The notes beneath the pieces are model-generated. The model made no database searches. It was given only the letters and a program-made list of their open reading frames with translations, and was not told where the DNA came from. DNA of 41,395 nucleotides from Bacteroidia bacterium (GTDB lineage: Bacteria; Bacteroidota; Bacteroidia; UKL13-3). The stretch lies in NCBI GenBank assembly GCA_020049855.1, contig JAGVLJ010000043.1:1-41395 (forward strand). Reading direction: 5' to 3'. Both the position numbers and the translations under genes were made by a program. The stretch's first letter is position 1; each line of letters begins with the position of its first letter. Of this stretch, positions 19,627 through 28,064 are shown in pieces.

Positions 19627-21114
19627 CTACTGCGTCCTGTTTTTCTGCCAGTTAGATTTCAATATAGCACTATGGGAGCCTCCAGTATTTTTTTGCCCTT
19701 TCGATTGCAACTGCAAGACCACCGAGGCCAAGGCAGCAATACCTTCTCCTACTTCAGCCAACTGTGGCAATTGCTCGGGAGTAAAATAATTGGGGATAAA
19801 TGCGGTATCGAATTTACCACTTACAAATGCCTCGTGATTCATAACAAAGGTTCCGAAGGGCAAAGTTGTAGCAATGCCGCTAATTTGGTAGTCGGCAATG
19901 GCGCGTTTCATTCTCCGTATCGCATCCTTGCGGTCGTGCCCCCATACAATCAGTTTTGCTATCATCGGGTCGTACTGAATAGGTATCTCCATCCCGGCTT
20001 CAAAGCTGTCATCCACCCGCACGCCATAACCCTGCGGAATTTTATACGTATGCAGTTTACCGATATCGGGCAAAAAGTTGTTGGCCGGATCCTCAGCACA
20101 CACGCGCAACTCAATGCTGTGTCCGCTTATTTTTAAATCGTCCTGTGTGTATCCCAGCTTCTCACCAAAGGCAATGCGAAATTGTTCGCGCACCAGATCG
20201 AGCCCTGTGATTTGTTCCGTTACCGGATGTTCCACCTGCAGGCGGGTATTCATTTCCAGAAAATAAAAATCCAGATTGGCATCTACCAAAAACTCTACGG
20301 TACCCGCACCGGTATAGTTACAGGCCTTGGCCACATTCACGGCCGCCTCTCCCATTCGCTTACGTAATTCAGGAGTGAGTACACAACTCGGTGCTTCTTC
20401 CACTAATTTCTGGTGCCTGCGTTGTACCGAACATTCCCGCTCGAATAAATGCACAATATTGCCATGCGTATCGCCCAAAATCTGAAACTCTATATGCCGT
20501 GGTCCTACCACATATTTCTCAATAAAAACAGACCCATCGCCAAAAGCAGATAAAGCCTCGCTCATGGCCATTTGTACCTGTTGCTCAAATTCGCTTGAGT
20601 TATTTACTACCCGCATACCCTTTCCTCCTCCACCGGCCGAGGCTTTAATCAATACCGGAAAGCCGGTTTGCTCCGCAACTTTTTTTGCTTCGCCTATATC
20701 AGTAATTGCACCTTCTGTACCCGGCACCATGGGCACATTAAATTTTTTTACGGCCGCCTTAGCTCCCAGTTTACTTCCCATTACCTCAATAGCCTCGGGG
20801 GTAGGGCCAATAAACACCATACCCGCCTCGCTCACCTTACGGCTGAACTGGGCATTCTCCGAAAGAAAACCATAACCCGGATGAATGGCTGTAACACCTA
20901 ATTCCTTGGCTACCTCAATAATTTTATCCATCAATAAATACGATTGATTGGAAGGAGGCGGACCAATACACACAGCCTCATCAGCATATTGCACATGCAG
21001 GGCGGTGCGGTCGGCTTCACTAAAAACGGCTACGGTTTTATATCCCAGCTCTTTGGCGGTGCGCATCACACGCAAGGCAATTTCTCCGCGATTGGCTATA
21101 AGTATTTTATGCAT
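19627..21114 (-). CDS. accC: Biotin carboxylase (acetyl/propionyl-CoA carboxylase subunit)
   Basis: A 495-residue biotin carboxylase that carboxylates the biotin of a carrier protein using ATP and bicarbonate. It begins MHKILIANRGEIALRVMRTA. Motifs include HPGYGFLSENAQFS, the glycine-rich ATP-grasp loop KASAGGGGKGMRVV (about 158-171), FIEKYVVGPRHIEFQILGD, RECSVQRRHQKLVEEAPS and MNTRLQVEHPVTEQITG. The length is slightly above the usual 450 because of a low-complexity C-terminal tail after about residue 465. No biotin carrier or carboxyltransferase gene is next to it here. Its 5' end and upstream bases are partly duplicated at 22233-22285. Confidence 0.95.
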   Translation of the reverse strand: MHKILIANRGEIALRVMRTAKELGYKTVAVFSEADRTALHVQYADEAVCIGPPPSNQSYLLMDKIIEVAKELGVTAIHPGYGFLSENAQFSRKVSEAGMVFIGPTPEAIEVMGSKLGAKAAVKKFNVPMVPGTEGAITDIGEAKKVAEQTGFPVLIKASAGGGGKGMRVVNNSSEFEQQVQMAMSEALSAFGDGSVFIEKYVVGPRHIEFQILGDTHGNIVHLFERECSVQRRHQKLVEEAPSCVLTPELRKRMGEAAVNVAKACNYTGAGTVEFLVDANLDFYFLEMNTRLQVEHPVTEQITGLDLVREQFRIAFGEKLGYTQDDLKISGHSIELRVCAEDPANNFLPDIGKLHTYKIPQGYGVRVDDSFEAGMEIPIQYDPMIAKLIVWGHDRKDAIRRMKRAIADYQISGIATTLPFGTFVMNHEAFVSGKFDTAFIPNYFTPEQLPQLAEVGEGIAALASVVLQLQSKGQKNTGGSHSAILKSNWQKNRTQ

Positions 21115-21153
21115 CTTTGGGTTGTGCTAAATCAGGGTGCTATATTCGGGAAA
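21101..21153 (+). repeat. Direct repeat, copy 1: accC 5' end and upstream flank
   Basis: About 53 bases from AGTATTTTATGCATCT to TATATTCGGGAAAA match 22233-22285 at about 83% (roughly nine mismatches, no gap). Copy 1 includes the first codons of accC read on the minus strand (M H K I). Read rightward it also contains TTTG at 21116-21119 and TATATTCG at 21141-21148, separated by 21 bases. This resembles a Bacteroidota promoter (TTTG, 19-21 bases, TAnnTTTG) with one mismatch. Confidence 0.7.
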
Positions 21154-21223
21154 ATATCGGGAAAACAGTAGTTAGAAATTTTCACAAAATAGCAGACCAC
21201 AGATAGAGTGCGCTCTGCCAAGT

Positions 21224-21251: not shown

Positions 21252-21560
21252 ATGGAATATAAAGATGAAATTAAACGATTAGAGTTAGTAGATAAGCGAA
21301 TTGAAATTCAAAAGAAAAAGCTGGAGGTAAAAAAAGAAAAAAGCAACCACACCCAATCAATAGAGCAATCCCAACTTCGGATTGAAGAACAACGACTCCT
21401 TATTCAAAAAATTTCAGAACTCAGGTTTTTGCTTACCGATTTTATTGTAGATGATGAACGTGCTGTGATTGGAAGCGAACCGTTTTATAAGCCTTCCATT
21501 ACCGGACTTAACCGGGAAAAAATTACGCTTAAATTAATGGATTTGATAGGTCAGGTATGA
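21252..21560 (+). CDS. Small coiled-coil protein, function unknown
   Basis: A 102-residue protein. The first 60 residues are highly charged with heptad-like spacing (IKRLELVDKRIEIQKKKLEV and QSQLRIEEQRLLIQKISEL), predicting a coiled coil. The C-terminal part (FLLTDFIVDDERAVIGSEPF) looks folded. No family is recognised. It begins at ATG 21252 behind a good -7 box and is followed 16 bases later by the first REP repeat. It lies inside the accessory insert between accC and the dehydratase gene, so it may have arrived with the insert. Confidence 0.55.
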   Translation: MEYKDEIKRLELVDKRIEIQKKKLEVKKEKSNHTQSIEQSQLRIEEQRLLIQKISELRFLLTDFIVDDERAVIGSEPFYKPSITGLNREKITLKLMDLIGQV

Positions 21561-21575
21561 TATATTGCCCAATGG

Positions 21576-21621
21576 CGCGAGGCTCCAGCCTCGTGACAAA
21601 CTATCACCAGGCATCTTGCCT
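21576..21621 (+). repeat. REP element copy A (two hairpins)
   Basis: Copy A has a first hairpin at 21578-21593 (CGAGGCT, two-base loop, AGCCTCG) and a second at 21609-21621 (AGGCA, TCT, TGCCT). Between them a GTGA (21593-21596) can pair with TCAC (21604-21607). It lies between the coiled-coil gene and the RAYT start. It matches copy C at 23431-23477 almost base for base, and copy B at 22196-22217 is its inverted partner. This is the layout expected of REP sequences flanking their own RAYT. Confidence 0.8.
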
Positions 21622-21651
21622 TTTTCGCAAAAAATCGAATAACTTGCATTC

Positions 21652-22188
21652 ATGTCTGAAAAATATAAAACCTTTCCGGGTGGGCTGTTCTTTGTTACCC
21701 TCACTCTTGTTGGCTGGATAGATTTGTTTACCCGCTATGATTACTGCAACGAACTCGTCAATAATCTGAATTTTTGTATTGATAAAAAAGGGCTCCGTGT
21801 ATTTTCATTTTGCATTATGCCAAGTCATGTGCATATGGTGGCCACCGTAAACGATGAGCAGAAACAATTAAGTGATGTGTTACGCGACCTGAAAAGTTTT
21901 TCAGCCAAACAATTTCTAAAAATGATAAAAAAACATCCGCAGGAAAGCCGAAAAGAATGGCTGCTACATATGTTTGCTTACTTCGCCAAACACAATAAAC
22001 ATAACAGCCAATACCAAATTTGGCAACAGCATAATCACCCTATCCATTTATTTTCCAATGAATGGATAGAGGAAAAAGTGAAATACATTCACCAGAATCC
22101 TGTAAAAGCCTGTTTGGTTACCGAACCTGAGGCGTACGTCTACAGCAGTGCCAATCCGTATACACAGGTAAAGCTGGAAGCTTTATAA
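21652..22188 (+). CDS. REP-associated tyrosine transposase (RAYT, Y1/HUH family)
   Basis: A 178-residue protein of the IS200-like TnpA_REP group. The HUH motif is His59-Val60-His61 in CIMPSHVHMV. Other family segments are FFVTLTLVGWIDLFTR, LSDVLRDLKSFSAKQ, ESRKEWLLHMF, YQIWQQHNHP, LFSNEWIEEKVKYIHQNPVKA and YVYSSANPY. The catalytic Tyr is probably in the region around Tyr110-Tyr121, but I cannot fix which. RAYTs nick and mobilise REP hairpins as single-stranded DNA. The REP copies on both sides in opposite orientation support that it acts on these. The gene looks intact. Confidence 0.9.
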   Translation: MSEKYKTFPGGLFFVTLTLVGWIDLFTRYDYCNELVNNLNFCIDKKGLRVFSFCIMPSHVHMVATVNDEQKQLSDVLRDLKSFSAKQFLKMIKKHPQESRKEWLLHMFAYFAKHNKHNSQYQIWQQHNHPIHLFSNEWIEEKVKYIHQNPVKACLVTEPEAYVYSSANPYTQVKLEAL

Positions 22189-22195
22189 TAATTTA

Positions 22196-22217
22196 TCACG
22201 AGGCTGGAGCCTCGCGC
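22196..22217 (-). repeat. REP element copy B, inverted, directly after RAYT
   Basis: These 22 bases, from TCACGAGGCT to AGCCTCGCGC, are the exact reverse complement of 21576-21597, the first hairpin of copy A with its flanks. The second hairpin of copy A is absent here. The stem (22199-22214) begins 11 bases after the RAYT stop, so it could also slow or end transcription. Copies A and B make an inverted pair around the transposase gene. Confidence 0.8.
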
Positions 22218-22232
22218 TAGCAGTCAATATTT

Positions 22233-22285
22233 AGTATATTATGCATCTCTTGGTTGTAAAAAATCGGGATGCTATATTCGTGAAA
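22233..22285 (+). repeat. Direct repeat, copy 2 of the accC 5' flank (possible promoter)
   Basis: This segment is about 83% identical to 21101-21153 in the same orientation. Read leftward it still encodes a degenerate accC start (M H N I L, then a stop about five codons later). Read rightward it holds TTG 22250-22252, a 20-base spacer and TATATTCG 22273-22280, a promoter-like arrangement 44 bases before the SIR2 gene start. Whether it fires is not known. Confidence 0.65.
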
Positions 22286-22324
22286 AGTTCCGTAAAGAAT
22301 AGACTAATTTTATAAGATTAAACC

Positions 22325-23410
22325 GTGGCTAAATTTACATACCTACTTGGTGCAGGTGCAAGTGCAAATAGGTTACCGACAATAATTGATTTTATTCATG
22401 GATTAGAATATGTGCGGGGACTATTTACTGCTAAGGACGGAATACTAACATCGCGTGAAACAATCAACATAGGAACCAATTTTGAACGGGAAATTTTGCT
22501 AAGAGACTTATCTTGGCTAATTGATGAAACAAAATCTCATGCAACAATAGACACCTTTGCGAAGAAGCTATTTTTGACAGAAGGCATTAACGACCCAAAC
22601 TATAATAAATTAAAACACCTACTTCAGTTTGTATTAACTATTTGGCATTTTAAAAAAGAAACTTTGTCCTTTATTAAGAAAGAAAAAACCGAGTATAGCT
22701 TTGATGTTGATCCAAGATATGATGCATTTTTCTCGAATATAATTAATAAAAGTTTACAAGGAACAGGTCCAAATACTCTTGATGGTAGGATTTCCATTAT
22801 TTCATGGAATTATGACTATCAAATAGAATATTCACTATGCAAGTTTTTTACTCCTGATGAAGTATCAAATATACTATTCCCATTATCGAGAGTTGAAATT
22901 CCAGGAACCACTACTACTTCTTTTACCAAATTGTCATTAAATGGTACCGTTGGAGAAAAATTTGATAAAGTCCTTTGTTCTGATATGGCAAAAGCTCAAA
23001 ATAGTACTCATGAAGTGCAGCACTCTCTTATAAAAAAGTACTTCGAAAAATACAATTCTGCGCTTTCCTCCAAAATTACAGAGTCGCCAATTAGTTATGC
23101 TTGGGAAGAAAAAGCACATGCTGTAGAAATGAGAAAGAAAGCTGAAGAGTTATTATCACATTCGGACTATCTTATAATCATTGGCTATTCTTTTCCTAAT
23201 TTTAACAGGGAAATTGATAAGGATATATTAAATGCGATGAATCGAGACATAAAAGTAATTATGCAATGCCCTGAAAAAGACTTTGAACAAACTCGTGACC
23301 GATTTTTAGCTAGATTATCCTCAAAAACGAATGCAGAAATTGGTGTAGTGAAAAAATACACTATCCCTTCTAAAGACATCAATGAGTTTCATATCCATAG
23401 AATGTTTTAA
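22325..23410 (+). CDS. SIR2-like domain protein (possible antiviral NADase)
   Basis: A 361-residue stand-alone SIR2-like protein. Gly-Ala-Gly-Ala-Ser at residues 9-13 (LLGAGASAN) is the NAD-binding loop. SWNYD at about 160-164 takes the place of the TxNxD motif. GYSFPNFNREID at about 287-298 is the usual C-terminal signature. The position that normally holds the catalytic HG is Asn-Gly (LSLNG, about 203-207), so the standard His is missing or displaced. Such SIR2_2-type proteins often serve in phage defence by depleting NAD+, usually with a partner; none is adjacent here. The start is GTG 22325 with no ATG nearby. The gene lies between REP copies B and C, which suggests lateral arrival. Confidence 0.82.
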   Translation: MAKFTYLLGAGASANRLPTIIDFIHGLEYVRGLFTAKDGILTSRETINIGTNFEREILLRDLSWLIDETKSHATIDTFAKKLFLTEGINDPNYNKLKHLLQFVLTIWHFKKETLSFIKKEKTEYSFDVDPRYDAFFSNIINKSLQGTGPNTLDGRISIISWNYDYQIEYSLCKFFTPDEVSNILFPLSRVEIPGTTTTSFTKLSLNGTVGEKFDKVLCSDMAKAQNSTHEVQHSLIKKYFEKYNSALSSKITESPISYAWEEKAHAVEMRKKAEELLSHSDYLIIIGYSFPNFNREIDKDILNAMNRDIKVIMQCPEKDFEQTRDRFLARLSSKTNAEIGVVKKYTIPSKDINEFHIHRMF

Positions 23411-23430
23411 GAATGGCTAGTTTTGGTTGT

Positions 23431-23477
23431 CGCGGAGGCTCCAGCCTCGTGACAAACTATCACCAGGCATATTGCCT
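23431..23477 (+). repeat. REP element copy C, at the 3' end of the dehydratase gene
   Basis: It is nearly identical to copy A: the 39 bases from GAGGCT to TGCCT differ at one position. It begins about 20 bases after the SIR2 stop. Its right boundary, where similarity to copy A ends, falls at 23477, and the minus-strand dehydratase stop TAG occupies 23478-23476. Two of the three stop-codon bases therefore come from the repeat. Confidence 0.8.
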
Positions 23478-25367: not shown

Positions 25368-25697
25368 ATGGGAGTTACAAAAGCTGAAGAATTTTCCGTT
25401 AAAGATAATCGCTTAGCCAAATATGCCAAAGCTTTATCACATCCAGCCCGCATTGCCATTTTAAAGCTGCTCATTCAAAAACAAGCTTGCATTTGCGGAG
25501 ATATTGTAGAGGAGCTTCCTTTATCTCAAAGCACTGTATCACAACATTTAAAGGAATTGAAAGAAGCCGGCCTGATTAAAGGAGATATTGACGGAGCTAA
25601 AGTGTGCTATTGTATTGACGAGAAAGAATGGAAAGCCGCCAAAAATTACCTGAACGATCTTTTTGAAAACTACAAAAGCCAAAAAAACTGCTGCTGA
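25368..25697 (+). CDS. arsR: ArsR/SmtB-family transcriptional repressor
   Basis: A 109-residue winged-helix regulator. [20 protein letters not shown] and the recognition helix [21 protein letters not shown] are classic. Cys41 and Cys43 (ACICGDI) lie just before the recognition region, similar in position to the ELCVCDL arsenite site of E. coli ArsR. Further Cys at 80 and 82 and a terminal Cys108-Cys109 pair could also bind As(III). It is the first gene of the operon, behind a promoter with an overlapping dyad, so it should repress its own operon until arsenite arrives. Confidence 0.94.
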
Positions 25698-25734
25698 CTT
25701 TTTAAAAACAAATCATCGAATAATTACGATTAAT

Positions 25735-26574
25735 ATGAAAACATCAGAACAACTGAAACAACTGGTTAAAGAAAAATACAGCCAAATTGCCCTTCAGGAT
25801 AAAAAAACCAACCAATCGTCCTGTTGCGGAACAGGTGGCTGCTCAACCGAAGTATATAACATAATGACGGATGACTACGATAAAGTAAGTGGGTACAATA
25901 ACGAAGCCGACCTTGGTTTAGGTTGCGGATTACCCACCCAATTTGCCAAAATAAAAAAGGGTGATCTGGTAATTGATCTGGGTTCAGGAGCAGGCAATGA
26001 TTGTTTCGTAGCGAGGCATGAAACCGGAGAAACCGGAAAAGTAATCGGTATTGATTTTACTCCTGCCATGATTGAACGGGCCCGAGAAAATACCAAGAAA
26101 CTTGGCTATAACAATATTGAGTTCAGGCAAGGCGATATTGAAAAAATACCGATAACCGCCAATGTAGCCGATGTTATTGTAAGCAATTGCGTATTGAATC
26201 TAGTACCTGATAAAGGCAATGTATTCAAAGAAATTTTCCGCGTGTTGAAGCCGGGCGGACATTTCAGTATTTCAGATGTGGTGTTGATGGGACAACTTCC
26301 GAAAGCCTTGCAAAAAGACGCTGAAATGTATGCCGGATGTGTGGCCGGTGCCATTCAAAAAAATGAATATCTACAATTGATACAACAAAACGGATTTAAA
26401 AATATTACCCTACAGAAAGAAAAGCCCATCAGTATACCGGATGATATATTGATGGGTTACCTGCAGGGAAAAGAACTGGAAGAATTTAAACAACAGCATA
26501 CCGGTATCTTTAGCATTACCGTGTATGGCGAAAAACCTGCTGATTGTTGTACCCCCGGTGGCGGTTGCTGCTGA
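25735..26574 (+). CDS. arsM: Arsenite S-adenosylmethionine methyltransferase
   Basis: A 279-residue methyltransferase from ATG 25735. The frame extends back to a TTG at 25663 inside arsR, but the family N-terminus and the 37-base gap favour the ATG. The SAM site is VIDLGSGAGNDCFVAR and IGIDFTPAMIERAREN. The three Cys positions conserved in ArsM enzymes are all present: GLGCGLP, SNCVLNL and YAGCVAGA. An extra CCGTGGC lies near the N-terminus and the protein ends in CCTPGGGCC, giving several more thiols for As(III). It methylates trivalent arsenic to mono- and dimethyl forms. Confidence 0.94.
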   Translation: MKTSEQLKQLVKEKYSQIALQDKKTNQSSCCGTGGCSTEVYNIMTDDYDKVSGYNNEADLGLGCGLPTQFAKIKKGDLVIDLGSGAGNDCFVARHETGETGKVIGIDFTPAMIERARENTKKLGYNNIEFRQGDIEKIPITANVADVIVSNCVLNLVPDKGNVFKEIFRVLKPGGHFSISDVVLMGQLPKALQKDAEMYAGCVAGAIQKNEYLQLIQQNGFKNITLQKEKPISIPDDILMGYLQGKELEEFKQQHTGIFSITVYGEKPADCCTPGGGCC

Positions 26575-26586
26575 TAAATAAATCGT

Positions 26587-27669
26587 ATGAGCGCTACCAA
26601 CTGCAACCCCACTCACCAGCGGAAAAAGCTTGGGTTCCTTGACCGCTTTTTAACCCTTTGGATTTTTCTCGCTATGATACTTGGTATTGGGATAGGCTAT
26701 TTTATACCAGCCATTCCATCGGCCATTAACCAGATGTCAAGCGGCACCACCAATATTCCCTTGGCCATCGGATTAATTCTGATGATGTACCCCCCGCTGG
26801 CAAAAGTTAAATACGATAAAATTCCCGGACTGTTCAAAAACAGCAAATTATTTCTACTCTCCATGGGCATTACGTGGATACTTGGCCCTTTGCTCATGTT
26901 TTTATTGTCCATCACTTTTCTTCGGGATAATCCCGAATACATGACCGGGCTTATACTTATTGGAATCGCTCCCTGCATTGCCATGGTCATTGTATGGAAT
27001 GAACTGGCTGAAGGGAATCGCGAATACATAGCAGGATTAGTTGGTATTAACAGCCTTATGCAGGTATTCTTCTTTAGTGCCTACGCTTACTTTTACCTTT
27101 CTATAATGCCTCCTCTCTTCGGAATAAAAAGCATGAAGGTAACTATCACAATCGGAGAAATTGCCCGCACGGTGGCCATTTACCTGGGCATTCCGTTCGC
27201 TGCCGGTGTCATCAGTCACTATTCTCTAATCAAAAATAAAGGGGAGGTCTGGTTCAATGAAAAATTTGTTCCGGCAGTATCTCCTATTACACTTGTAGCT
27301 TTGTTGTTTACCATAATGGTCATGTTTAGTCTTAAAGGCGAACTGATTATTCAAATACCCTTTGATGTATTGCGTATTTCCATACCTCTGGTAATTTATT
27401 TCGTCATCATGTTCCTGTTTACTTTTTTTGCAGCAAAAGCCATAGGAGCCGATTATGAAAAAAATGCTTCAGTGTCATTTACTGCTTCCGGAAATAATTT
27501 TGAATTAGCCATTGCCGTAGCAATAGGCGTATTTGGGCTAAACAGCGGCCAAGCTTTTGCAGGGGTCATTGGCCCATTGGTAGAAGTTCCTGTACTTATT
27601 GCTTTGGTAAATGTGGCTTTCTGGCTACGAAAAAAATATTATCCAAATCAAAAAACAAAGAACTTATGA
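26587..27669 (+). CDS. acr3: Arsenite efflux transporter, ACR3 family
   Basis: A 360-residue membrane protein with about ten hydrophobic segments. It begins with FLDRFLTLWIFLAMILGIGIG and contains IPLAIGLILMMYPPLAKVKY, LIGIAPCIAMVIVWNELAEG with the Cys essential in ACR3 proteins, and ASGNNFELAIAVAIGVFG. It exports As(III) across the inner membrane using the proton gradient. It starts 12 bases after arsM and its stop overlaps the arsC start by 4 bases (ATGA). Confidence 0.96.
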   Translation: MSATNCNPTHQRKKLGFLDRFLTLWIFLAMILGIGIGYFIPAIPSAINQMSSGTTNIPLAIGLILMMYPPLAKVKYDKIPGLFKNSKLFLLSMGITWILGPLLMFLLSITFLRDNPEYMTGLILIGIAPCIAMVIVWNELAEGNREYIAGLVGINSLMQVFFFSAYAYFYLSIMPPLFGIKSMKVTITIGEIARTVAIYLGIPFAAGVISHYSLIKNKGEVWFNEKFVPAVSPITLVALLFTIMVMFSLKGELIIQIPFDVLRISIPLVIYFVIMFLFTFFAAKAIGADYEKNASVSFTASGNNFELAIAVAIGVFGLNSGQAFAGVIGPLVEVPVLIALVNVAFWLRKKYYPNQKTKNL

Positions 27670-28064
27670 AAAAACGTTTGCTCTTTGTATGCATTGAAAA
27701 TTCCAACCGCAGCCAGATGGCTCAGGCCTTTGCCAAAATACATGGAGGCAATGAAATAGAAGCTTACAGTGCTGGTTCAAAACCCTCCGGAAAAATAAAT
27801 CCAAAAGCCATTGCTGCTATGAATGAACTGGGCTATGACCTCAGTACTCATGACTCGAAATCATTAGATGAGGTTCCGAAAGAACCATACGAGTATGTAG
27901 TAACCATGGGATGCGGTGATGCCTGCCCATGGATGCCCGCCAAACATTTTATTGACTGGCAAATCCCCGACCCAAGAAATATGAACCCCGATGAATTCAG
28001 AAAAGTACGCGACTTAATTGAATCTAAAGTAAAAGAACTGCTGCAGGCAGCCGAGTTAGTGTGA
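27666..28064 (+). CDS. arsC: Arsenate reductase, LMW-phosphatase (thioredoxin-coupled) type
   Basis: A 132-residue protein with the P-loop CX5R (Cys9 to Arg15, CIENSNRS) at the N-terminus and the Asp in DWQIPDPRNM acting as general acid. Cys83 and Cys87 (MGCGDACPW) supply the redox cascade, so it should belong to the thioredoxin-linked class related to S. aureus ArsC. It reduces As(V) to As(III), which ACR3 then exports or ArsM methylates. It is coupled to acr3 by a 4-base overlap and is the last gene of the operon. No terminator hairpin is obvious after it. Confidence 0.94.
   Translation: MKKRLLFVCIENSNRSQMAQAFAKIHGGNEIEAYSAGSKPSGKINPKAIAAMNELGYDLSTHDSKSLDEVPKEPYEYVVTMGCGDACPWMPAKHFIDWQIPDPRNMNPDEFRKVRDLIESKVKELLQAAELV

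Follow-up and report, generated by a model that had tools for sequence, protein, structure and literature searches.

A stand-alone SIR2-fold protein with asparagine at the position of the catalytic histidine: a candidate NAD+-cleaving antiphage family, mainly of Bacteroidota

The DNA analysed here, called the window in the following, is the complete stretch of 41,395 nucleotides of contig JAGVLJ010000043.1 from a Bacteroidia bacterium (lineage UKL13-3). An accC-like gene upstream and an epimerase-type (sugar-nucleotide) gene downstream, both on the opposite strand and both named from a reading of the sequence, enclose a variable segment, which contains the gene of a SIR2-fold protein. The features of this locus are:

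21252-21560: ORF of 102 amino acids, found in the same slot in a genome of the same genus (L163:4636-4944)
21578..21593, no strand: palindrome P1, which begins a 43-nt direct repeat in common with P3 (98%)
21652..22188, plus strand: RAYT (REP-associated tyrosine transposase), NF047646 score 100.9 at a cut-off of 80 bits, Y1_Tnp
22199..22214, no strand: palindrome P2, in the opposite orientation to P1 and P3
22233..22296, no strand: sequence just ahead of the SIR2 start that repeats, at 80%, the 5' end of accC together with the region preceding it (original at 21101-21164)
22325..23410, plus strand: gene of the SIR2-fold, NG-type protein, GTG start, 361 amino acids, one intact ORF
22349..22363, plus strand: GAGAS NAD-binding loop, residues 9-13 (sequence and family alignment)
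22709..22717, plus strand: D129-P-R131, whose D129 and R131 are invariant in the NG clade
22802..22816, plus strand: SWNYD, residues 160-164 (sequence and family alignment)
22937..22945, plus strand: L205-N206-G207, NG in place of the catalytic HG
23183..23218, plus strand: GYSFPNFNREID, residues 287-298, with N294 and D298 clade-specific
23434..23449, no strand: palindrome P3, beyond the SIR2 stop

Three copies of the REP-like palindrome CGAGGCTSSAGCCTCG lie within 21562-23477; P1 and P2 flank the RAYT gene, P2 and P3 flank the SIR2 gene. The 14-nt core of the palindrome occurs nowhere else in the 2.9-Mb assembly; the RAYT therefore lacks a REP family of this type scattered over the genome. 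Judged by its sequence, the copy of the accC 5' end in front of the SIR2 gene is a scar of a duplication or an insertion. In two genomes of the same genus, both without a family gene, the gap between accC and the epimerase gene is occupied differently: One contains a gene resembling P-type ATPases and an ORF of outer-membrane type (names from sequence reading), the other the shared 102-aa ORF and several further ORFs. This arrangement would fit a RAYT-linked arrival of the SIR2 gene. Scans for promoters and terminators gave results at chance level, and the locus had no match in Rfam. Further downstream (25368-28064) follow ORFs, which we take to be arsenic-resistance-like: an ArsR-like protein, a methyltransferase, an ArsB/ACR3-like permease, and an ArsC-like protein.

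The window protein alone matched no SIR2 model of Pfam, NCBIfam or PADLOC at E ≤ 1 and no solved chain, and single-sequence scans of genome contigs, viral contigs and plasmids retrieved no close relatives. Among 15 relatives, four matched the Pfam SIR2_2 model at E ≤ 1 (best value 0.0022). An AlphaFold2 model computed from a 65-row alignment had a pLDDT of 87.6 and a pTM of 0.89. Its top match among solved structures was PsSIR2 (Z 14.4, 251 aligned residues, RMSD 4.1), followed by a SIR2/HerA complex (Z 14.3), sirtuins, SPARSA (Z 12.4), and ThsA (Z 11.8); the best Foldseek match was 8wld_J (E 4.1e-4). The model thus indicates a SIR2 fold, whose best solved matches are antiphage SIR2s. The predicted fold, together with GAGAS, SWNYD, and GYSFPNFNREID at the residues listed above, bears out the SIR2-like nature assigned to the protein in the original prediction. 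As CxxC is absent from the sequence, the zinc module of canonical sirtuins is missing; domain-model searches of the 361 residues gave no match to a C-terminal SLOG/STALD domain as found in ThsA.

To our knowledge, the histidine of the HG motif has hitherto been regarded as absolutely conserved in SIR2 proteins. The window protein reads LNG at positions 205-207 (codon AAT of N206 at 22940-22942), as had been predicted, and three alignments put N206 into the column of the catalytic histidine. In profile alignments, distant SIR2 proteins spanning column 206 have histidine in 14 of 15 cases and asparagine in one (L139). In a hand-built alignment, NG of the 38 family rows stands opposite HG of the 27 His-type rows without exception. 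Finally, the family profile aligns N206 with the engineered Asn 146 of a solved chain labelled KomC(H146N), which is the best sequence-profile match among solved chains, though a weak one (E 0.41); we take the H146N of this label to denote an inactivating mutant. An hhalign comparison of the family with seven SIR2_2 proteins reached only NYD (prob 68.5), and column 206 lies outside of it. In the structure model, N206 follows the strand 201-204. SIR2_2 relatives in the window's own bacterial family have HG in 10 of 10 loci, as read by eye from the proteins. As far as alignments can tell, N206 stands exactly at the position of the catalytic histidine of SIR2 NADases.

A 15-row alignment retrieved 239 relatives from genome contigs; 80 of these loci were kept, most of them from Bacteroidota and a few from Balneolota/Rhodothermia, Ignavibacteria, Spirochaetota, and Deltaproteobacteria/Myxococcota. 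Viral contigs contributed 11 loci, and the family also has a representative in LE1-like Leptospira phages. The distribution is patchy: Including the window's own genome, 6 of 395 genomes in the phylum search and 9 of 58 genomes of near relatives contain the family. Large added domains are improbable, because the proteins mainly comprise 330-400 residues. For conservation analysis, 90 non-redundant relatives, whose identity with the window protein is about 24-32%, were used, after excluding L070/L010 (internal stops), L007/L118 (truncated), L015 (frame ends early), and four duplicates. The copy at L070:8001-8966, the same locus as L010, has two in-frame stops and is apparently broken.

Measured against what defines SIR2-fold NADases (SIR2_2/SIRim), the family has the fold, GAGxS, and NxD, and the HG histidine is asparagine in all 90 relatives. 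Likewise invariant (90/90 each) are G207, N162, D164, D76, R131, N294, D298, and Q314. The viral loci read [LI]NG in 11 of 11 cases, at least two of which are redundant (L148/L149 are near-identical; L144 is apparently the same sequence as L072). Given Asn 206 in 90/90 relatives and 11/11 viral loci, an effect of chance or sequencing is ruled out. The 80 loci were found by the patterns WNYDxQ and GYSFPxxN, which makes these columns conserved partly by construction; column 206 is in no pattern. A pattern-free family profile run over the 395 genomes found six members including the window gene, all with asparagine, after which the score drops from 226.7 to 61.8 bits; the lower-scoring SIR2 proteins mostly have histidine. 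In the 26 of 28 flavobacterial pairs for which dS was finite, dN/dS was 0.12-0.34, with synonymous sites near saturation; this subgroup is under purifying selection. Invariant N162 and low dN/dS disfavour a decay of the family. Within this family LNG is the standard motif, and NG has been described for Avs5. The idea that the motif is normal in an already described subfamily holds to this extent; the family itself is named by no Pfam, NCBIfam or PADLOC model, and the open-access literature searched yielded no description of it.

In a tree computed without columns 205-207, the 38 NG rows form one branch (support 100/99), although many rows are long, the bootstrap is not fully settled, and the His rows were picked for having histidine. 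This topology fits a single origin of the NG clade. Several sites separate the two types: R131 (38/38 NG rows, 0/26 His rows), D129 (38/38, 1/26), W161 (38/38, 0/27), Q166 (37/38, 0/27), N294 (38/38, 2/27, with aspartate in 23), D298 (38/38, 3/26), and Q314 (38/38, 3/27). N162 and D164 are common to all SIR2 proteins compared, of both types. Judged from the aligned rows, a wider shift of conserved sites accompanied the exchange of histidine for asparagine.

The same columns bear on a replacement of the lost base. That another residue takes over was among the original suggestions, and a histidine elsewhere in the catalytic position would have spoken against the original reading; the best alternative column is H72, which is histidine in only 65 of 90 members, and a substitute histidine was rejected. 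NAD+ hydrolysis with a base supplied by H72, D76 (aspartate in 90/90) or E261 (glutamate or aspartate in 89/90) could draw on the frequencies of these residues; we regard it as very unlikely, since H72 is missing in 25 of 90 members and many His-type relatives (17/25) have D76 too.

Among known systems, SIR2-HerA proteins (PsSIR2 and E. coli SIR2) have the solved folds closest to the window model (Z 14.4 to about 12). Their SIR2 protein carries HG, the window protein NG, and they act with a HerA partner, whereas no HerA ATPase adjoins the window gene in the surrounding ORFs or the searched neighbours. ThsA (Thoeris), DSR1/DSR2, and the SIR2 protein of SPARSA share the SIR2 fold, GAGxS, and NxD with the window protein; all of them have histidine at the NG position and, unlike the window protein, extra domains or partners. 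KomC of the Kongming system, which works with KomA and KomB, has a wild-type His 146 according to the chain label, in contrast to Asn 206. The SIR2 domain of PaAvs5-1 (AVAST type 5) resembles the family in having GAGxS, NxD and, as published (PMC12931631), NG instead of HG as its natural state. There, it is part of a large STAND ATPase protein, whereas the window protein is a stand-alone ORF of 361 residues without STAND ATPase; moreover, Avs5 proteins have TTNXD, and NG in about half of the homologues, compared to [ST]WNYD and a fixed NG in the window clade. Class M sirtuins (SirTM) similarly have an amide residue at the His position; they differ by QG, a macrodomain operon, and a GVGx[NT]TP motif (PMC4518038).

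Whether a protein with NG can be catalytically competent is answered differently by mutants and by natural variants. The exchanges H152A in ThsA (PMC7272460) and H186A in SPARSA (PMC10781750) abolished NADase activity. PaAvs5-1, for which NG at residues 153-154 is the natural state, is described as losing defence upon N153A and N153Q and retaining part of it upon N153H; in infected cells NAD+ decreased about threefold and ADPR increased (PMC12931631). SirTM proteins are protein ADP-ribosyltransferases with robust mono-ADP-ribosylation, in which Gln 137 replaces the histidine and contacts the 3'-OH and the conserved Arg 192; Gln137-to-His was reported to cost the activity (PMC4518038). PaAvs5-1 with NG and class M with QG suggest that amide residues at the His position are compatible with NAD+ cleavage chemistry. 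For asparagine, this argument draws on Avs5 only, which was set beside the family by its published description.

A non-catalytic sensor of NAD+, ADP-ribose or another nucleotide, i.e. a pseudoenzyme acting through binding, would agree with the fact that this histidine is the residue usually mutated to inactivate SIR2 NADases (as in ThsA H152A and SPARSA H186A) and that a solved chain bears, by its label KomC(H146N), the identical change. We consider such a sensor improbable: D164 and N162, the residue on which the cleavage step depends, are both invariant, the 80 loci showed no effector, fused or linked, that a sensor could drive, and PaAvs5 demonstrates the competence of NG (PMC12931631). Of the altered chemistry or pure sensing originally proposed, the His-to-Asn exchange is thus real, and a mere sensor or a loss of hydrolysis is weakened by the two invariant residues and by the NAD+ loss seen with PaAvs5-1.

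Altered chemistry in the form of ADP-ribosyl transfer is conceivable, since the QG sirtuins of class M perform it (PMC4518038). The amide would then replace the base, which is superfluous once nicotinamide has left, and ADP-ribose would be passed to a protein, a nucleic acid or a small molecule. In accordance with the SirTM precedent of Gln 137 with Arg 192 and a dead Gln137-to-His variant, the clade couples the amide N206 with R131, which is invariant and clade-specific. However, R131 precedes the NYD strand and hence has a place in the sequence unlike Arg 192, and no macrodomain or acceptor gene recurs among the 25 most frequent neighbour families (148 neighbour proteins). Furthermore, asparagine and glutamine are not interchangeable in PaAvs5, where N153 works and N153Q is dead (PMC12931631). 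Altogether, we judge a transferase to be unlikely.

The genomic surroundings are those of a single gene. As predicted, no TIR, HerA or Argonaute gene adjoins it in the ORF list or among the searched neighbours, and apart from local synteny no partner gene recurs across the 80 loci. Eight flavobacterial copies lie between an SDR gene and a downstream Schlafen-AlbA_2/DUF5929 gene (Pfam assignment for the L041 copy). The latter was rejected as a partner, since this gene is common among flavobacteria: It was found above the cut-off in 18 of 198 genomes, all of one family. In 10 of these 18 loci the SDR gene is directly upstream without a SIR2 gene in between, which argues for insertion of the flavobacterial SIR2 gene rather than pairing; the other eight have another or an undetected gene there. 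Two Saprospiraceae copies are located 13-18 bp behind a methylmalonyl-CoA mutase gene; for a third member, the distance to an upstream gene of this type is 380 bp. Within 1 kb (148 of 183 proteins scanned), N6_Mtase was found five times, MmeI_Mtase four times, ResIII and HsdM_N three times each. With PADLOC, families reached up to five members in this near set and at most one in a control set taken farther away at the same loci (148 of 286 proteins). Restriction-modification genes are thus commoner near the family, yet the enrichment is modest and inflated by overlapping models.

The RAYT was rejected as a conserved partner as well, because the one in the window has no homologue near the other 80 loci (phmmer, E up to 10); another Y1_Tnp domain was found in 2 of 148 neighbour proteins. 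At L082:5496-7970, a restriction-methylase ORF of the MmeI/Eco57I type, which contains a Y1 transposase domain in the same frame, precedes a family member by 12 bp.

The predicted SIR2 fold, fixation and position of N206 across the family, its single clade, purifying selection in a subgroup, and the stand-alone, mobile setting are what was observed. Our preferred interpretation is an active NG-type SIR2 NADase, encoded by a stand-alone mobile accessory gene and probably directed against phages; we assign this reading a probability of about 50%. Upon a trigger, such an enzyme would cleave NAD+ to nicotinamide and ADP-ribose. NAD+ would be bound by GAGAS, N162/D164, and the GYSFPxFNRxxD segment, with N162 placing the nicotinamide ribose and a water molecule. 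N206 would form hydrogen bonds to the ribose hydroxyls rather than act as a base, presumably assisted by the clade-specific residues R131/D129, W161, and Q166. The most likely role would be abortive infection by a single gene; alternatively, the protein could serve superinfection exclusion by prophages.

This NADase reading is in line with the antiphage SIR2 folds, the constrained sites, the single clade, the PaAvs5-1 precedent, the restriction-modification neighbours, the carriage by phages, and the patchy occurrence. It has to be reconciled with the alanine mutants of the equivalent histidine, which kill the NADases ThsA and SPARSA (PMC7272460, PMC10781750), with the missing match of the window protein alone to any SIR2 model, and with the fact that no sensor domain or partner accounts for an off-state. 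Against a role in defence speak, besides the modest enrichment, the several members that lie behind housekeeping genes (SDR, methylmalonyl-CoA mutase) instead of in islands.

A more far-reaching interpretation, which we put forward tentatively and with a rather low chance of being correct, is a separate sirtuin-fold class. Its site, composed of the Asn amide and the invariant Arg 131, would constitute a third chemistry without histidine beside the QG of class M and the NG of Avs5. A one-gene system of this kind might transfer ADP-ribose to a target of phage or host, or hydrolyse NAD+ without a base, and might spread as a cassette shared by bacteria and phages.

The family is probably functional and not degenerate; it would be a scarcely studied kind of defence protein that consumes NAD, and would add a candidate one-gene defence family unnamed by the defence and protein-family models tried. 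SIR2 NADases and NG in Avs5 are already known; the earlier account of NG is one paper of 2026 and concerns half of one large multidomain family (PMC12931631). What is new is a stand-alone clade fixed for NG. Being small and of a single domain, it offers a clean system for studying the role of histidine and asparagine in NAD+ cleavage by SIR2 proteins.

A SIR2-containing protein outside the NG clade (L139:1234-3363) combines TTNYD and LNG in a frame of 1049 residues and is ThsA-like according to PADLOC and the solved-chain search. From its sequence, it is likely an independent case of NG and possibly Avs5-like; its position outside the clade suggests that HG changed to NG more than once.
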